In this document: one piece after another, positions 6,802 to 50,360 of the stretch
Layout: each line of letters begins with the position of its first letter
Position numbering within the stretch: position 1 is the first letter of the stretch
Source of the DNA: Burkholderiales bacterium
GTDB taxonomy: Bacteria; Pseudomonadota; Gammaproteobacteria; Burkholderiales; Casimicrobiaceae
Direction: 5' to 3'
Length of the DNA stretch: 64,000 nucleotides
Assembly: GCA_016790165.1 (NCBI GenBank)
Contig: JAEUPL010000020.1
Location: 1-64,000 of the forward strand
Made by a program: the position numbers and the translations under genes
The notes under the pieces: generated by a model
The model's database searches: none
What the model was told of the DNA's origin: nothing
The model's input: only the letters and a program-made list of their open reading frames with translations

Positions 6802-8208
6802 TCACGAAAGTGTCGCCATTGTCGCCCACGGCTGCGCCGATTCCAATGCCCGCGCAGCGCGCAGCACCAACGCGTCGCCATGCATCGGTCCCACGATCTG
6901 CACCGCCAGCGGCAGGCCGTCGTCGTCGAAACCACACGGGCAGACGCAGGCGGGCTGCTGCGTGAGGTTGAAGGGATAGGAAAACGGCGTCCAATCAAGA
7001 AAGTGCTCGATGGGCGTGTCCCACTCCGTTGACGCGCGCGCCTTGAACGCCGGCACGGAGACGCCCGGGGTGAGCAGCAGGTCGTAGCGCTGGTGAAACT
7101 TGCGCATCAGAATGCCCAGCTCACCGCGTCGCTTGGTCAACGCCTGCAACTCGGGCACGCTCACACGGGCACCGGCCTCCGCCTGTGCCGCCAACGCCGG
7201 ATCCACCAGCGCCTGCTGCGCCGGGGTCATGCCGCCATAGAGGGTGGCTGAGCCGATGAACCAGAGCTTCATCGTGATTTCGAGCGGATTCTCGAATCCA
7301 GGGTCAACTTCTTCGACCTGCGCGCCCAGCTCCGCGAGCTTTTCTGCGGAACGACGCACCGCTGCGGCGATGGCGGGATGCACGTTGTTTACATAGCCGA
7401 GCGCCGGGCTGAACGCCACGCGCAGGCCACGAACGCCCTCGTTGAGCCCGACGGTGTAGTCGCGCGGATCGAAAGGCAGGGACGTCCAGTCGCGGGCGTC
7501 GGGCCGCGCGATCACGTTCATCAGCATCGCGGCGTCGGTCACGGTGCGCGTGTGCGGCCCGAGGTGCGCCACCGTGCCAAATGGCGACAACGGCCACGCC
7601 GGGACGCGACCGAATGAGGGTTTGAGCCCGAAGCCGCCACAGAAGGCGGCCGGAATGCGCACACTGCCGGCGCCATCGGTGCCAATCGACAGCGGCCCGA
7701 TGCCGGCGGCCACCGCGGCCGCGCTGCCGCCCGACGAACCGCCCGAGGTGCGCTCGAGGTGCCAAGGGTTCCGCGTCACACCGGTCAAGGTGTTGTCGGT
7801 GGTGCCCTTGATGCCGAATTCCGGCGTAGTCGTTTTGCCGATGATCACCAGCCCCGCCTCGCGGCACCGCGCCACACTCGGGGCGTCATCGTTCCACGGT
7901 TGCGCCGGATCGATCGTGCGCGAGCCCCGCCGCGTCGGCCAACCCGCCGTCAGGATCAAATCCTTGATCGAAATCGGCACGCCGTCGAGCGGCGACAGTG
8001 GCCTGCCCGCTTGCCAGCGTGCTTCGCTGGCGCGGGCATCGGCCAGCGTGCGCGCCCGATCCTCAAAGCAGAATGCGTTGATTTTCGGCTGCCACTGGTC
8101 GAGCCGTGCAAACACCGCATGCGCGACGTCGACGGGCGACGCTTCGTGCCGGCGGTACGCCCGGGACAGGGATTCAGCGGAATAGTCAGCGAGAGAACCG
8201 GTAGCCAA
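6802..8208 (-). CDS. Amidase-signature family hydrolase
   Basis: A 468-residue amidase-signature enzyme with all parts of the Ser-cisSer-Lys triad: Lys in PISIKD, the glycine/serine stretch TSGGSSGGSAAAVAAG, and the nucleophilic Ser in GTDGAGSVRIPAAFCG. It looks like a stand-alone catabolic amidase (GatA-like fold, no GatB/GatC neighbours). The start is TTG at 8208, supported by a GGAGG five bases upstream (8215-8219); no ATG fits better. It is the first gene of the amidase-kinase-mgsA run. Substrate unknown. Confidence 0.88.
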   Translation of the reverse strand: MATGSLADYSAESLSRAYRRHEASPVDVAHAVFARLDQWQPKINAFCFEDRARTLADARASEARWQAGRPLSPLDGVPISIKDLILTAGWPTRRGSRTIDPAQPWNDDAPSVARCREAGLVIIGKTTTPEFGIKGTTDNTLTGVTRNPWHLERTSGGSSGGSAAAVAAGIGPLSIGTDGAGSVRIPAAFCGGFGLKPSFGRVPAWPLSPFGTVAHLGPHTRTVTDAAMLMNVIARPDARDWTSLPFDPRDYTVGLNEGVRGLRVAFSPALGYVNNVHPAIAAAVRRSAEKLAELGAQVEEVDPGFENPLEITMKLWFIGSATLYGGMTPAQQALVDPALAAQAEAGARVSVPELQALTKRRGELGILMRKFHQRYDLLLTPGVSVPAFKARASTEWDTPIEHFLDWTPFSYPFNLTQQPACVCPCGFDDDGLPLAVQIVGPMHGDALVLRAARALESAQPWATMATLS

Positions 8209-8290: not shown

Positions 8291-8409
8291 AGCTTTTGGC
8301 ACTTAACGACCAGCCAGTGGTCATCGCAGACATATTTAATGAAAAGTCGACTTTGCACGAAAAGTGCCCCGAATCGGCACAGATTGGTCGTGGAGTACGA
8401 AAAGATGTA
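8291..8409 (+). repeat. Copy A of the 119-bp palindromic intergenic repeat
   Basis: Starts AGCTTTT at 8291, has TAACGACCA at 14-22, the central AGTCGACT at 55-62, and ends GAAAAGATGTA. It has the same length and internal spacing as the copies at 18747, 22028, 36762 and 50242. The two arms pair: CTTTT at the left end against AAAAG at the right, and ACGACCA against TGGTCGT. It lies between the amidase start and the 3' end of the lipoprotein gene. Confidence 0.85.
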
Positions 8410-8443: not shown

Positions 8444-9151
8444 CTACCCTCGCGACACTTTGCCCACGCCGCTCACGCTGGTCTTCACATCGGTGGCCGT
8501 GCCGGTCCAGGTGAGGCTACCCACACCGCTGACGGACGCTTTGAGCGATTTGTCCGCGCGCACGGTGCCGCTGCCCACGCCCGAAAGCTCCGCGTCCACA
8601 CGGTCGGCGACGAGGTTTTCCGAATCCACGCTGCCAACGCCGGAAAGCTCGATCTTGAGCGTATCGACGCGACCGGCGAGCTTGGCGGTGCCCACACCGG
8701 AGGTGTCGAGCGTGAGCTTGCCGCCGCTGAATCCACCGGCGTCGATGGTGACGGCGCCAGAATTCTCGATGCGTTCGATGGACCGCGCGTTCACCTCAAA
8801 CACGATCGGCGTCTTCGGAACGTAACTGCCCTTGGTCGACAGCACCAGCACGCCGTTGCGCACCTCGCTCGAGATCAGGGGCAGCAGGTTGTCGTCGGCC
8901 GTCACCCGCAGCGACTCGGCCGGGCCAACCACCAGCTTGAGCTTGCCGCTCCCGGTCGCTTCAACCGCTGTGAACGCGGTGACGGCCCGCGTTTCGCTCG
9001 CGCTCACGCCACTGCCCTTCACGCCCTTGCTGTCGCCAATCGTGATGTTGATTTCTCCGCAACCGGAGAGCGGACCGGCACCGGCCACGGCCAATCCGAG
9101 CGCGAGCGCAGCCACTGCGCGGCGGCGCAGGCCGCCCCACATCGTATTCAT
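8444..9151 (-). CDS. Lipoprotein with GIN-domain (DUF2807) beta-structure
   Basis: A 235-residue lipoprotein. The signal region ends in the lipobox LSGC (Cys about residue 31). The mature part is the DUF2807 'putative autotransporter adhesin head' type, with regular strands carrying repeated SGVG/SGAV turns (for example DTSGVGTAKL, ELSGVGSVDS, ELSGVGSGTV, SVSGVGSLTW), suggesting a right-handed beta-helix. ATG 9151 is followed 32 bases upstream by the stop of the SPFH gene, so the gene may be the last of the nfeD-SPFH operon. Its molecular role is unknown; a cell-envelope location is expected. Confidence 0.82.
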   Translation of the reverse strand: MNTMWGGLRRRAVAALALGLAVAGAGPLSGCGEINITIGDSKGVKGSGVSASETRAVTAFTAVEATGSGKLKLVVGPAESLRVTADDNLLPLISSEVRNGVLVLSTKGSYVPKTPIVFEVNARSIERIENSGAVTIDAGGFSGGKLTLDTSGVGTAKLAGRVDTLKIELSGVGSVDSENLVADRVDAELSGVGSGTVRADKSLKASVSGVGSLTWTGTATDVKTSVSGVGKVSRG

Positions 9152-18746: not shown

Positions 18747-18865
18747 AGCTTTTTACCGGTAACGACCAGTCCGTCGTCGATTGCGGCTGAAAACGGTGCT
18801 AGTCGACTTTCACTAAAATCGCGCTGTATCGACCAGCTGGCGGTCGATGGCCTAGAAAAGCCGTA
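18747..18865 (+). repeat. Copy B of the 119-bp palindromic intergenic repeat
   Basis: AGCTTTT at 1-7, TAACGACCA at 14-22, AGTCGACT at 55-62, GGTCGAT at 96-102 and AAAAGCC at 110-116, followed by GTA. The left-arm CGACC (17-21) mirrors the right-arm GGTCG. It sits between two convergent genes (zinc-finger protein and DUF2783 protein). Confidence 0.9.
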
Positions 18866-21195: not shown

Positions 21196-21903
21196 ATGAA
21201 ATCCATTCTTTTTGCCTTCGCATCGATCCTCATCCTCACCGCCTCAGGCTGTGCGACCTACACGCCCAGCATGGCAAAGATCGATCCCGTTGCCGCCGGC
21301 TCCGCAAAGGGTCAGAACAAGGGCGTCACCGTTCACATCAATGAGCACATCCGCAAGGCGAAGTCGGAGCGCGCGTTCGACACCGATCTCCGCGACGACG
21401 GCGTGGCAGCGCTATTGGTCGGCATCCAGAACGGGCACGGCAAACCGTTTTCGTTCACGGAAAACGACATCGTCTTGATGGACGGAGACAAGCCGCTGAC
21501 GCGCCTCTCGCCCGAGCAGGCCGCCGAGAAGGCAAAGAAGAGTGCCGCCGGTCGCGCCATTGGCTGGAGCCTGATCGTTCCGATCATCAGTATCCCGATC
21601 GCGGCCACTGCGTCGGTAATGCACACCAACAAGGTGAACCGTCAGATGCGCGAGGACTTCGTCAACAAGAACCTCGGCAACATGGTGCTTGCACCGGGCA
21701 AGGACGTGTCCGGATTCGCTTTCTTTGAAGTGGAAAAGACAAGATCGTCGTTTCCGAACCTCACACTCGTGCTGACTGGGGCGCTCGAGGGCGAAGCCGA
21801 GAAGGTGAAGATTTCCGTCGCGCTGGCGCCGATTGACACCGCCGTGCCGGACGCTGCGCCTGTCACCACGGCGACGCCCGAGCCCACCGCGCAACCCAAA
21901 TAG
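21196..21903 (+). CDS. Lipoprotein of unknown function
   Basis: A 235-residue lipoprotein. The signal peptide ends in the lipobox ASGC (Cys19). A middle hydrophobic stretch (IGWSLIVPIISIPIAATASV, near 117-136) may insert in the membrane or pack in the fold. The C-terminus is threonine/proline-rich (VTTATPEPTAQPK). Two beta-rich segments (GVAALLVGIQNG, FPNLTLVLTGAL) flank it. I do not recognise the family. It is convergent with gyrA across an intergenic region that holds repeat copy C. Confidence 0.65.
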   Translation: MKSILFAFASILILTASGCATYTPSMAKIDPVAAGSAKGQNKGVTVHINEHIRKAKSERAFDTDLRDDGVAALLVGIQNGHGKPFSFTENDIVLMDGDKPLTRLSPEQAAEKAKKSAAGRAIGWSLIVPIISIPIAATASVMHTNKVNRQMREDFVNKNLGNMVLAPGKDVSGFAFFEVEKTRSSFPNLTLVLTGALEGEAEKVKISVALAPIDTAVPDAAPVTTATPEPTAQPK

Positions 21904-22027
21904 TGAGCGGTCCGCCGCCGCGATCGCATCGTTGCTCCGCCGAATGGGTTCGCTCGCTGCGGCGGAGCCGTGAGTGGGGTCTCGTTCGCTCGGCGACGAG
22001 GCGCTCTAGCCAGACGCCCCGGAGATT

Positions 22028-22146
22028 GGCTTTTCTACGCTAACGACCATTCCACGGTCGATAGCGACCGATTACGACCGAAGTCGACTATCCATGAAAT
22101 CGACCGACAGAGGCCGTCCAGCCGTCGCTAGAGCAACAAAGCCGTA
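22028..22146 (+). repeat. Copy C of the 119-bp palindromic intergenic repeat
   Basis: GGCTTTT at 1-7, TAACGACCA at 14-22, AGTCGACT at 55-62 and CAAAGCC at 110-116, followed by GTA. The left end GGCTTT is the exact complement of the right end AAAGCC. It lies between the convergent lipoprotein and gyrA genes. Confidence 0.9.
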
Positions 22147-22192
22147 ACCACGCCCGCCCCGCTCATCGGAGTCTGGGCGTGGCTGGCCGCCG

Positions 22193-24769
22193 TCAGAGCA
22201 GCTCGCCCTGATCGCCCTCGCCCGGTTCCACTTCGGGCTCATCAATGCGTTCGATGCCGGAGAGCTTGACGCCGTCGTCGAGCTTGATCAGCGTCACGCC
22301 CTGCGTCGAACGGCCCGATTCGCGGATCGACTTCACCGTGGTGCGGATCAGCACCCCGCCGGTGGTGATCAGCATCACTTCGTCGCCTGGGTTCACAAGC
22401 GTCGCCGCTACCACTTTGCCGTTGCGCGCGCTCTGCTGGATCGCGATCATGCCCTTGGTGCCACGACCGTGCCGGGTGTACTCGACGATCGGCGTGCGCT
22501 TGCCGAAGCCGTTTTCGGTGGCCGTGAGTACCTGTTGCTCCTCGGTACCGGCCACCAGCATGGCGATGATGCGCTGGTCTTTCTCGAGCATCATGCCGCG
22601 CACACCGCGGGCGTTGCGGCCCATGCTGCGCACGTCGTTCTCGTCAAACCGCACCGCCTTGCCGCTGTCGGCGAACAGCATCACGTCGTGCTTGCCGTCG
22701 GTCAACGCCGCGCCCACGAGGTAGTCACCGTCATCCAGATCCACGGCGATGATGCCGGTTTTCTTCGGGCGGCTGAAGTCCTCAAGCGACGTCTTCTTCA
22801 CGGTGCCCATGCTGGTCGCCATGAAGATGTATTTGTCCGGCTCGAAACCCTTGGTGGCCACGATGGCCGTGATCTTCTCGCGATCCTGCAGCGGGAACAG
22901 GTTGACGATCGGTTTGCCGCGACTGTTGCGGCCGCCTTCCGGCACTTCGTAGACCTTGAGCCAGTACACGCGGCCACGGTTCGAGAAGCAGAGGATGTAG
23001 TCGTGCGTGTTGGCGATGAAGAGTTTCTCGACGAAGTCTTCTTCCTTGGTCGCCGTGGCCTGTTTGCCGCGCCCGCCGCGCTTCTGCGCGCGGTATTCCT
23101 CGACCGGCTGCGCCTTGAAGTAGCCGCCGTGCGTCAGCGTCACCACCATGTCCTGCGGCTTGATGAGATCTTCAATCGAGGTCTCTTCGGCGTTCAGCAC
23201 GATTTCGCTCTTGCGTGCATCGCCGAACTGCTTTTTGATGTCGGCCAGCTCGCCCGAGATGATCTTCGTCACGCGTTCCGGCTTGGCCAGGATGTCGAGC
23301 AGGTCGCGCACGGTTTCGATCACTTCCTTGTATTCGGTGATGACCTTGTCGGATTCCATCGCCGTCAGGCGCTGCAGGCGCATCTCAAGGATCGCCTTGG
23401 CCTGCACGTCCGTCAGGCGATACGCCTTCTCGCCTGGCTGCCAGCAGTACTCCGGGCCGACACCGTCCGGGCGCAGGAAGTCCACATCGGCACGTGCGAC
23501 CATTTCGGCGACCAGGTCGGACTTCCAGAGCTTGGTGGTCAGCGCGGTTTGTGCCTCGTCCGGCGTCGCGGAGGCCTTGATCAGTTCAATGATCGGGTCG
23601 ACGTTGGCCAGCGCCACGGCGAGACCTTCGAGAATGTGGGCGCGGGCCCGGGCCTGACGCAGCTCGAACTGCGTGCGCCGGGTGACCACCTCGCGGCGAT
23701 GCAGGATGAACTGTTCGAGGAAGTCCTTCAGGTTCAGCACGCGTGGACGCTGGTCCACCAGCGCCACCATGTTCATCCCGAAGCTGTCCTGCAGCTGGGT
23801 GTTCTTGTAGAGGTTGTTGAGGACGATGTCCGGGATTTCGCCGCGTTTCAGCTCAATGACGATGCGCATGCCCGACTTGTCGGACTCATCGCGCAGGTCA
23901 GAAATGCCTTCCAGCTTCTTGTCACGGACCAGCTCGCCGATTTTCTGCAGCAGGGTCGATTTGTTGACCTGATACGGGATCTCGTCAACGATGATGGCCT
24001 GGCGGTCGGTCTTGCCAATCGGCTCGAAATGCACCCGCGCGCGCATCACCACGCGGCCGCGGCCCGTGCGATAGCCGTTGTGAACGCCTTCGAGGCCGTA
24101 GATGAAGCCCCCGGTTGGGAAATCCGGCGCCGGGACCAGCTTGATCAGTTCTTCAATGTCGGTGTCCGGCTTTTTCAGCAGCACCTGAACCGCATCCACC
24201 ACCTCGGAGAGATTGTGCGGCGGAATGTTGGTGGCCATACCGACGGCAATACCGGCGGAACCATTAACCAGAAGATTCGGAAATTTCGCAGGCAGAACCG
24301 TCGGTTCCTGCTCCTTGCCGTCATAGTTGGGCTGGAAATCGACCGTTTCCTTTTCCAGATCACCCAACAACTCAGCCGAAATCTTCTGCAGACGGCACTC
24401 GGTGTAGCGCATCGCGGCGGCGTTGTCGCCGTCGACCGAGCCGAAGTTGCCTTGACCGTCGATCAGCGTGTAGCGCAGCGAAAAATTCTGCGCCATCCGC
24501 ACCAGGGTATCGTAAATCGCGCTGTCGCCGTGTGGATGGAACTTGCCCATCACGTCGCCCACGATGCGTGCGCACTTGACGTACGGCCGGTTGTGCACGT
24601 TGTTCGCCTCATGCATTCCGAACAGCACCCGGCGGTGCACCGGCTTGAGGCCGTCGCGCACGTCCGGCAGGGCGCGGCCCACGATCACGCTCATGGCGTA
24701 GTCGAGGTAGGACGAGCGCATCTCCTGCTCAAGGCTGATCGGTAGCGTTTCTTTGGCGAATTGATCCAT
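22193..24769 (-). CDS. gyrA: DNA gyrase subunit A
   Basis: An 858-residue type II topoisomerase subunit that cuts and rejoins DNA during negative supercoiling. It begins [37 protein letters not shown] and the catalytic tyrosine in AAAMRYTE are present, and the C-terminal beta-pinwheel includes the GyrA box region QKRGGRGK. The quinolone region reads [17 protein letters not shown], with wild-type Ser and Asp at the E. coli 83 and 87 positions, so no target resistance is evident. ATG 24769 is chosen over 24799 because it gives the family start. It is a single gene, convergent with the lipoprotein gene. Confidence 0.97.
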
Positions 24770-25054
24770 GTCGGCAGTCAGGCAGGCAGCGAACGTCATT
24801 CGCCGCGCGGAAAAAGGTCAACTGTCGATTTTAGAGGGAGCGGCCCCCTCGCCGACAGCCGTCCGTTGCTTATCCGCCACAACCGCCCGAATTGCCACGA
24901 AACGGGGCATCGCGCACCGTCCGGCGCGTTGCGCCCCGCAAAACGGCGGTGTTATATTGCACAGGGAGGGGCTTTGTGTGAACCGCTATTGTGTGTGGCG
25001 GGCTGCGTGAAGTCACCGTGACATCGTCTCAAGCCTTCAAGGGGTACAAAATCA

Positions 25055-28052: not shown

Positions 28053-28127
28053 GGGCGGTTAGCTCAGCGGTAGAGCACTGCCTTCACACGGCAGGGGTCA
28101 CTGGTTCGATCCCAGTACCGCCCACCA
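28053..28127 (+). tRNA. tRNA-Val, anticodon CAC
   Basis: A 75-nt cloverleaf with the CCA end encoded. The acceptor stem GGGCGGT pairs with ACCGCCC. The D arm contains AGCTCAGCGGTAGAGC. The anticodon arm CTGCC-TTCACAC-GGCAG gives anticodon CAC, reading GTG (Val). The T arm CTGGTTCGATCCCAG is complete. Confidence 0.97.
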
Positions 28128-36761: not shown

Positions 36762-36880
36762 GACTTTTTGCGCCTATCGACGTCTGAATGCGGGCTGGCA
36801 GGCCGTTTTCTCTTATGTCGACTTCGGCATTTTTTGACAGGTATCGACCATTGGACGGTGGATACAGCAAAAAAGCTGTT
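36762..36880 (+). repeat. Copy D of the 119-bp palindromic intergenic repeat
   Basis: The most divergent copy but in exact register: GACTTTTT at 1-8, TATCGAC at 14-20, TGTCGACT at 55-62, TATCGACCA at 81-89, and AAAAAGC near the right end. It lies in the 311-bp divergent region 36664-36974 between the SDR and the DapA-like gene, 37 bases before the FadR-type operators. The rest of that region holds only those operators. Confidence 0.75.
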
Positions 36881-50241: not shown

Positions 50242-50360
50242 AGCTTTTCTGCACTAGCGGCTTCCAGACAATGGTTTTCGCACGTTTTTTGTCATTGTCG
50301 ACAATCGGGAAAATCGTGCTGCATTGACCGTCCGCCAGCCGTTGAATGCAAAAAGCCGTA
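50242..50360 (+). repeat. Copy E of the 119-bp palindromic intergenic repeat
   Basis: AGCTTTTCT at the left end, TGTCGACA at 55-62, and AAAAAGCC at the right end followed by GTA. Among the five copies this one is the best palindrome: both arms carry GCACG at equal distance from the centre, and CGGCT near the ends. It lies between the convergent dctM and marC genes. Confidence 0.88.

Follow-up and report, generated by a model that had tools for sequence, protein, structure and literature searches.

What is the dyad-symmetric repeat that lies beside gyrA and recurs in five places within a 64,000-nucleotide stretch of DNA (the window) from a Burkholderiales bacterium, and what keeps it at one length? 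The initial annotation had described five copies with conserved blocks at fixed positions, GTCGAC in the middle, similar ends followed by GTA or GTT, and no indel between copies. Direct reading of the letters confirmed all of this, with the copies at the same coordinates and the blocks placed as described. The copies start with AGCTTTT (three of five), GGCTTTT or GACTTTT (one each), and element positions 14-22 read TAACGACCA in three of them and have diverged forms in the other two. GTCGAC at positions 56-61 and an AAAAGCC-like block at positions 110-116 are found in all five, and the end of the element is followed by GTA in four copies and by GTT in one. The copies are equal in length, as had been claimed, but the length is not 119 bp: the core is 116 bp, with WW[CA/TG] loosely conserved at its edges. 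As listed for copy 3 in Table 1, the core is made of terminal blocks (1-7 and 110-116), two arms (14-37 and 80-103) and the centre (56-61), and its symmetry axis is at 58.5. In the source genome (G000) each arm has the consensus TAACGACC N8 GGTCGTTA.

Table 1. Element copies in the window, the parts of copy 3 and the adjoining gyrA gene (window coordinates).
Feature	Position	Strand	Context or basis
Copy 1, 116-bp core	8291..8406	.	between amidase gene (6802-8208, -) and DUF2807 gene (8444-9151, -); matrix scan
Copy 2, 116-bp core	18747..18862	.	matrix scan
Copy 3, 116-bp core	22028..22143	.	49 bp from gyrA stop; matrix scan
Copy 3, left terminal block RGCTTTT (element 1-7)	22028..22034	+	positions 3-7 invariant in 28/28 aligned copies
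Copy 3, left arm (element 14-37)	22041..22064	+	consensus TAACGACC N8 GGTCGTTA, imperfect in copy 3
Copy 3, dyad centre GTCGAC (element 56-61)	22083..22088	.	each position kept in 27-28/28 copies
Copy 3, right arm (element 80-103)	22107..22130	-	mirrors left arm in consensus
Copy 3, right terminal block (element 110-116)	22137..22143	-	28-copy alignment
gyrA, DNA gyrase subunit A	22193..24799	-	Pfam PF00521 and PF03989; adjoins copy 3; orthologous-site marker
Copy 4, 116-bp core	36762..36877	.	between divergent called genes; matrix scan
Copy 5, 116-bp core	50242..50357	.	between convergent DctM-family and MarC-family genes

We aligned 28 copies, and zero gaps were required. The alignment held 26 of the 30 pattern-search loci and the two window copies that the pattern search had missed, and it was selected with the fixed length in mind; it omits L013 and L014, with a rearranged right part and a right end displaced by one, respectively, the spurious match L018, and L029, which duplicates L028. 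Information reached 2 bits per position within the blocks and fell almost to 0 in the stretches that separate them. Each G000 copy carries ~82 bits, with blocks of 1-2 bits alternating with near-uninformative positions. Mean pairwise identity of the copies was only 61 of 116 bases in G000, where the most alike pair was identical at 80 of 116 and near-identical copies were absent. Together, the ~82 bits and the low pairwise identity argue for a constraint that would act on contacts at fixed distances. Symmetry of each copy about 58.5 had also been proposed. It holds for the consensus, but single copies are partly palindromic, with 22-39 of 60 mirror pairs matching (background mean 16), and dyad symmetry thus characterises the consensus rather more than any individual copy.

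A matrix scan of 452 kb of G000 (contigs C23, which is the window's contig, and C15) gave 37 copies with scores of 43-119, the maximum for reversed sequence being -15. Five of them lie in the window, exactly at the coordinates in Table 1. Hundreds of copies per genome had been predicted, and the scan bears this out: a density of one per 12.2 kb extrapolates to ~300 copies per genome. An alternative weighting added one weak G000 match at a score of 21, after which came noise (bimodal scores). A 21-base pattern with one mismatch allowed matched 94 times in the genome and 0 times in the reversed control, counted on both strands, where one element may count twice.

The search of the relatives, done with matrices and with models R1 and R2, found the family in 16 of the 17 genomes of the genus. 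Model R1 detected 12 of the 17, matrices together with R2 added G002 and G003, and R2 added G004 and G005. G010 was the sole genome without detectable copies by models R1 and R2, so not every member of the genus needs the element. The family may postdate the split of G010 or have been lost there. At 84%, the identity of the G010 GyrA match to G000 is lower than that of any other genus member. An order-wide search with R2 under strict filters gave matches in six of 250 genomes drawn (224 non-matching genomes are unlisted), all six in the source genus, one of 120 genera; a model built on one species, such as this, would overlook a strongly deviating dialect. For five genomes (80 kb each) from four further genera of the same taxonomic family, the best scores were at most 8 above the reversed control. 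A stringent pattern matched 45 stretches in the GTDB collection, all in two metagenome-assembled genomes, and had no match in viral contigs; copy 3 as query had no match in plasmids and phages. No account in the open-access literature was recognised as describing the element, which is a weak negative.

The ends persist across the genus, as does the centre in most species, and the arm sequences change by species. The arm dialect is AAACGAC...GGGGCTA in G013, ...GGGCTT in G001 and CGCCCA...TGGGCG in G006; G002 has TGCC...AAATAAGGG with a TTTCGAAA-like centre, and the core of G013 is ~2 bp shorter than that of G000. These copies were found with iterated matrices. A de novo palindrome scan was also tried for the relatives and was too weak, because single copies are only partly symmetric. 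The G003 and G006 lists were noisy (matches 66-67 bp apart), and neither entered the counts of spacing, gene context and half-elements; the GC profile used the 19 better G006 matches. Despite the differing letters, AT/GC content plotted against distance from the dyad is correlated from one species to another (r 0.44-0.95). All blocks were in register in 34 of 37 copies in G000, 31 of 34 in G013, 17 of 26 in G001 and 10 of 12 in G002, the rest being off by 1-2 bp. Length is therefore kept strictly in G000 and G013 and less so in G001. A few copies score nearer the G000 dialect than their own, 1 of 26 in G001 (G001:C1:25071) and 2 of 14 in G014 (G014:C53:122507 and 160166), and they may be remnants or newcomers of a second type.

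The elements are spaced more evenly than chance. For random intergenic sites on six contigs of four genomes, pooled, 20.9 ± 3.7 gaps shorter than 3 kb and 34.5 ± 3.9 shorter than 5 kb were expected, and 1 and 9 were observed; matches with scores up to 40 had been removed for these counts and for those of gene context and half-elements, and 2 gaps below 3 kb rather than 1 are found if they are kept. The coefficient of variation (CV) of the gaps was ~0.5 in both G000 contigs and 0.6 in G013 and G002; the spacing of G002 by itself was not significant (P 0.09). G001 was not regular, with a gap CV of 1.36, because of one 105-kb gap. Across the whole G001 genome, 150 scored strand matches, a list cut by score, yield 96 elements, and among these there were 0 gaps below 3 kb against 6.0 expected under uniform placement. 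These 96 lie to 45% in the third nearest the origin and to 22% in the third nearest the terminus (dnaA is at 1150), and since they were chosen by score the origin-side bias is only a hint. These dyad-symmetric DNA sites thus form a genuine family, strongly maintained and spread at even distances, with matches in one genus only in the searches made.

The element-free 105 kb of G001 (C1, ~110370-215376, L151-L156) holds conjugation genes. Eight proteins of this stretch were scanned against Pfam; one had no match, and the matches comprised a topoisomerase, TraG/TraD-like and TraC proteins, a Tn3 transposase and HerA-like and SNF2-like helicases. Its gene content makes an acquired conjugative island likely, one that may carry defence genes. 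Even coverage, species dialects and an empty stretch with conjugation genes would also suit self-identity tags that follow the logic of DNA uptake sequences, that is, a species mark in nearly every resident stretch that is absent from acquired DNA. We give this analogy hardly any credence, as the elements are mostly intergenic and, at 116 bp with ~82 bits, far longer than known uptake tags.

Gene context was taken from a home-made gene caller. An overlap of more than 30 bp with a called gene occurs in three of 107 copies. The neighbouring genes are convergent at 32 copies, tandem at 59 and divergent at 16, and convergent spaces are enriched relative to intergenic spaces of at least 116 bp (32 of 107 against 85 of 592, odds ratio 3.5), where the 592 spaces include two contigs without counted copies and an element lengthens its own space. 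The median distance to a gene 3' end is 30 bp, and in tandem pairs 43 of the 59 copies are nearer the end of the upstream gene. With the matrix scan and the block register, this context upholds the earlier description of a dispersed, mostly intergenic family of conserved length.

Positions near gene 3' ends and between convergent genes are where positive supercoils are expected. By analogy, the elements might be strong sites for DNA gyrase or topoisomerase IV, an enzyme that would wrap the dyad, cut its centre and relieve positive supercoils downstream of genes. The length, the dyad and the phased AT/GC pattern recall the E. coli gyrase motif, which one study describes as 130 bp long and symmetrical, with a GC periodicity of 10.75 bp (PMC6379681). 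Over k=1-58 the best AT/GC period of the element was 9.75-10 bp in five of six species and 7.0 in G002, and the 10-bp signal made up 15-17% of the profile power in five species, a share given without significance control. In the flanks (k=17-58), symmetrical and phased as they are, the best period was 7.25-9.75 bp in the six species (7.25-7.5 in five of them), and the 10.75-bp flank period of the gyrase motif was not found. Moreover, GyrA is 96% identical between G000 and G001, yet their arms differ strongly, and gyrase sites would leave the restriction to a single genus unexplained. We regard this explanation as quite improbable; the element does not belong to the gyrase motif, and it could work in a similar way.

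The initial annotation had pointed to filled and empty orthologous sites as a check. Ten syntenic G000/G013 element intervals of at most 3.5 kb were compared; six hold an element in both species and four in one only. In three of these four, other DNA amounting to more than 2 kb also differs; the fourth, beside a methyltransferase-like gene and a tRNA gene, plainly lacks the element. The G013 interval syntenic to that of copy 1 also has an element, and copies 2 and 3 share a 3.5-kb interval whose G013 counterpart has one. At the tRNA gene in the window (28053-28124), an element lies in G013 between the tRNA and the preceding methyltransferase-like gene, and none lies there in G000. Over all genomes, 18 of 31 interval rows had an element in both, in a list that counts some pairs twice and includes the noisy G003 and G006 lists. 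At G008/G015 loci four of seven rows were shared, one of them on a weak match. The site 3' of gyrA, read by eye except in G012 and with G005, G009 and G015 left out, is filled in 7 of 14 genus genomes (G000, G001, G007, G011, G013, G014 and, by model, G012) and looks degenerate in G002, G003 and G006; no element was seen there in G004, G008, G010 and G016, nor at any of the 17 loci from other genera.

Between G000 and G013, orthologous copies are no more alike than random cross-species pairs, so descent there rests on position. Between G008 and G015 one orthologous copy is identical at 96 of 116 bases without a gap, with flanks 91% identical over 620 bp. In two locus pairs of these genomes (L103/L084 and L095/L094) the copies are 83-84% and the flanks 90-91% identical, the second pair over 165 bp only. 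To judge from these sequences, the elements may evolve faster than their surroundings.

The main rival explanation is a mobile repeat, MITE- or REPIN-like and long resident, whose transposase is encoded elsewhere; target immunity would then produce the spacing, and transposase recognition sites the blocks. The mirror-image arms resemble the two inverted REP-like units of a REPIN, and the copies nearer the G000 dialect in G001 and G014 and the sites filled in one species and empty in another are in its favour. So are the genes with a Y1_Tnp domain, present in 15 of the 17 genus genomes, and the existence of some weak and partial copies. Weak whole copies, with scores of 40 or less but above the control, numbered 1 of 38 in G000, 2 of 28 in G001 and 5 of 39 in G013. 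A half-element matrix scan of 1.33 Mb in four species gave 234 matches, and 231 of them were inside whole elements. The three lone halves (two in G001, one in G002) scored 2-11 above the control maximum, with no pair around a gene. No lone half was above the threshold in G000 or in G013, where the half-element control was high and weaker halves would escape.

With few weak copies and lone halves at 3 of 234, the broad spectrum of truncated or decayed copies was not seen. Neither a parent element with the same terminal inverted repeats nor a longer element with the same ends was found in the 1.33 Mb of the four species. One filled and empty pair (G013 C79:31278 against G000) was too diverged for any target-site duplication to show. 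An element was present at 2 of 20 Y1_Tnp loci (59 kb), one of them weak, which falls short of the flanking repeats typical of a RAYT gene; ~5 would be expected at one per 12 kb, in a set in which several genomes were scanned without a matrix of their own. The G000 Y1_Tnp gene (L039:556-1511) has its own upstream repeats, GGGGTCAGGTCTTGCAA and inverted copies, unrelated to the element. A REPIN driven by RAYT was rejected: no link was found at the 20 loci, and the one in G000 carries a GGGGTCAGG-type repeat of its own. Sites common to different species and the lack of near-identical G000 copies also speak against a mobile repeat, which we consider unlikely. The ERIC/MITE design favoured at first did not hold up, given the missing parent element, the few weak copies, the near absence of lone halves and the regular spacing.

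The symmetry might instead serve pairing, in an RNA or cruciform hairpin such as a bidirectional terminator or an mRNA 3' stabiliser. Copies do fold better than shuffles (mean z -1.7 to -2.9 in four species) and, in three of four species, better than column-permuted copies (z -4.2 to -6.7; G002 -1.1). The excess of stability remains when the permutation keeps the strong/weak pattern (0/60 in three species), and for single halves an advantage over permuted ones is seen in G000 and G001 but is missing in G013. However, swapping right halves between copies left the folding energy unchanged in three species, so pairing across the dyad is not the source of the extra stability. Variable mirror pairs matched slightly more often than expected, at 0.439 against 0.419 in G000 (p 0.016), 0.419 against 0.398 in G001 (p 0.027) and 0.431 against 0.422 in G013 (p 0.19). 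This excess over independence, ~2 points in G000 and G001 and 1 point in G013, does not bear out the compensatory changes looked for across a long stem. The mirror-pair test (44% against 42% in G000) and the half-swap control, which costs nothing, led us to reject one long imperfect hairpin as the selected feature, which the initial annotation had suggested.

Within the arms, the best axis differs by set (54, 50, 47 and 43, with scores of 1.4, 4.3, 2.9 and 3.8). The sole Rfam match at gathering score in the window was a tRNA, and no intrinsic terminator (G+C-rich stem and T run) was found in 21800-22350, around copy 3, the one copy scanned. The 16 of 107 copies between divergent genes also fit poorly with a hairpin element, and we take this explanation to be very improbable. 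On balance, a symmetric protein that reads double-stranded DNA seems more probable than a single long hairpin. No explanation emerged for the added stability inside halves, and it counts against a symmetric site.

The reading that we tentatively favour, with a confidence that falls a little short of even, is that the elements are putative binding sites with dyad symmetry, recognised by a chromosome-organising complex that wraps or bridges DNA. Each ~116-bp element would bind a putative protein complex with two-fold symmetry, and the complex would wrap or bridge DNA over several turns, touching both ends, both mirror-image arms and the centre. The ~300 sites, about one per 12 kb, would act jointly as loop anchors, in control of supercoil domains or in a similar architectural task. 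The arms would change in step over the genome because the recognising protein changes. Also in favour are the blocks kept in register, the bimodal G000 scores, the element-free conjugative stretch of G001, the AT/GC pattern common to species, the positions near gene 3' ends and between convergent genes, and a symmetry that does not depend on pairing across the dyad. Fixed geometry, a dyad consensus, copies that are nearly always whole and over-dispersed, mostly intergenic positions were observed directly, as were positions common to species, species-specific arms and matches in only one genus; the protein reader, its symmetry, the wrapping or bridging and the architectural task we infer. More doubtful is the wider proposal of chromosome-wide units of ~12 kb, with a code that would be rewritten between species while positions persist, and a fast-changing organiser protein that would coevolve with its sites.

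Several observations count against binding sites of an architectural complex. The ~82 bits are far beyond the need for locating a site in a genome, and a joint change of arms at hundreds of sites is hard for any site system. The weak copies and the three lone halves, and the four of ten G000/G013 intervals without an element in one species, weigh in the same direction, as do G010 without copies, the irregular gaps of G001, the small share of the 10-bp signal and the 7.25-7.5-bp best period in the flanks of five species. The even spacing could also be explained by target immunity of a mobile element. An extra HU/IHF paralogue was considered as the binding factor and rejected, as the genus genomes have 2-4 matches and genomes elsewhere 1-4 (one has 6), which is no difference.

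ERIC is an enterobacterial 127-bp intergenic repeat, an imperfect palindrome present in many copies. Compared by description and not by sequence, the element is like ERIC in its similar length, imperfect palindrome, intergenic position and many copies. Unlike ERIC, its copies are strongly diverged, rarely fragmented and over-dispersed, with partly shared sites and a sequence that changes by species. REP units, according to one source, are small palindromes tagged GTAG or CGTC, and GTAG units are often clustered and tied to RAYT genes (PMC3733652). Like REP, BIME and REPIN sequences, the element has two mirror-image arms with short inverted repeats, a species-specific sequence and a position near gene 3' ends. 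It differs from them in that hardly any single units occur, no linked Y1_Tnp gene was found and no invariant GTAG or CGTC tetranucleotide was seen by eye in the columns of the 28 copies; it also has even spacing and no abundant identical core. With gyrase sites (the Mu SGS, BIME-2 and the E. coli motif) it shares a long dyad-symmetric site of similar length with phased AT/GC, but its period is not 10.75 bp, its letters are strongly conserved within species and its matches are in only one genus.

Should the element be a mobile repeat instead, its scant debris and its tendency to space itself out would likewise be unusual. Like the Noc, SlmA and MatP systems, the architectural reading has many chromosome-wide sites read by one protein, here putative. 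Sites for Noc, SlmA and MatP are ~20 bp or less and not evenly spaced at ~12 kb, whereas the elements are 116 bp and evenly spaced at that distance. The dialects of the species would reveal how DNA sites can be rewritten together as an entire set. To our knowledge, bacterial supercoil domains or loops of ~10 kb are usually thought to be without fixed sequence boundaries, and long, evenly spaced and strictly kept sites would offer a genetically tractable candidate for such boundaries.
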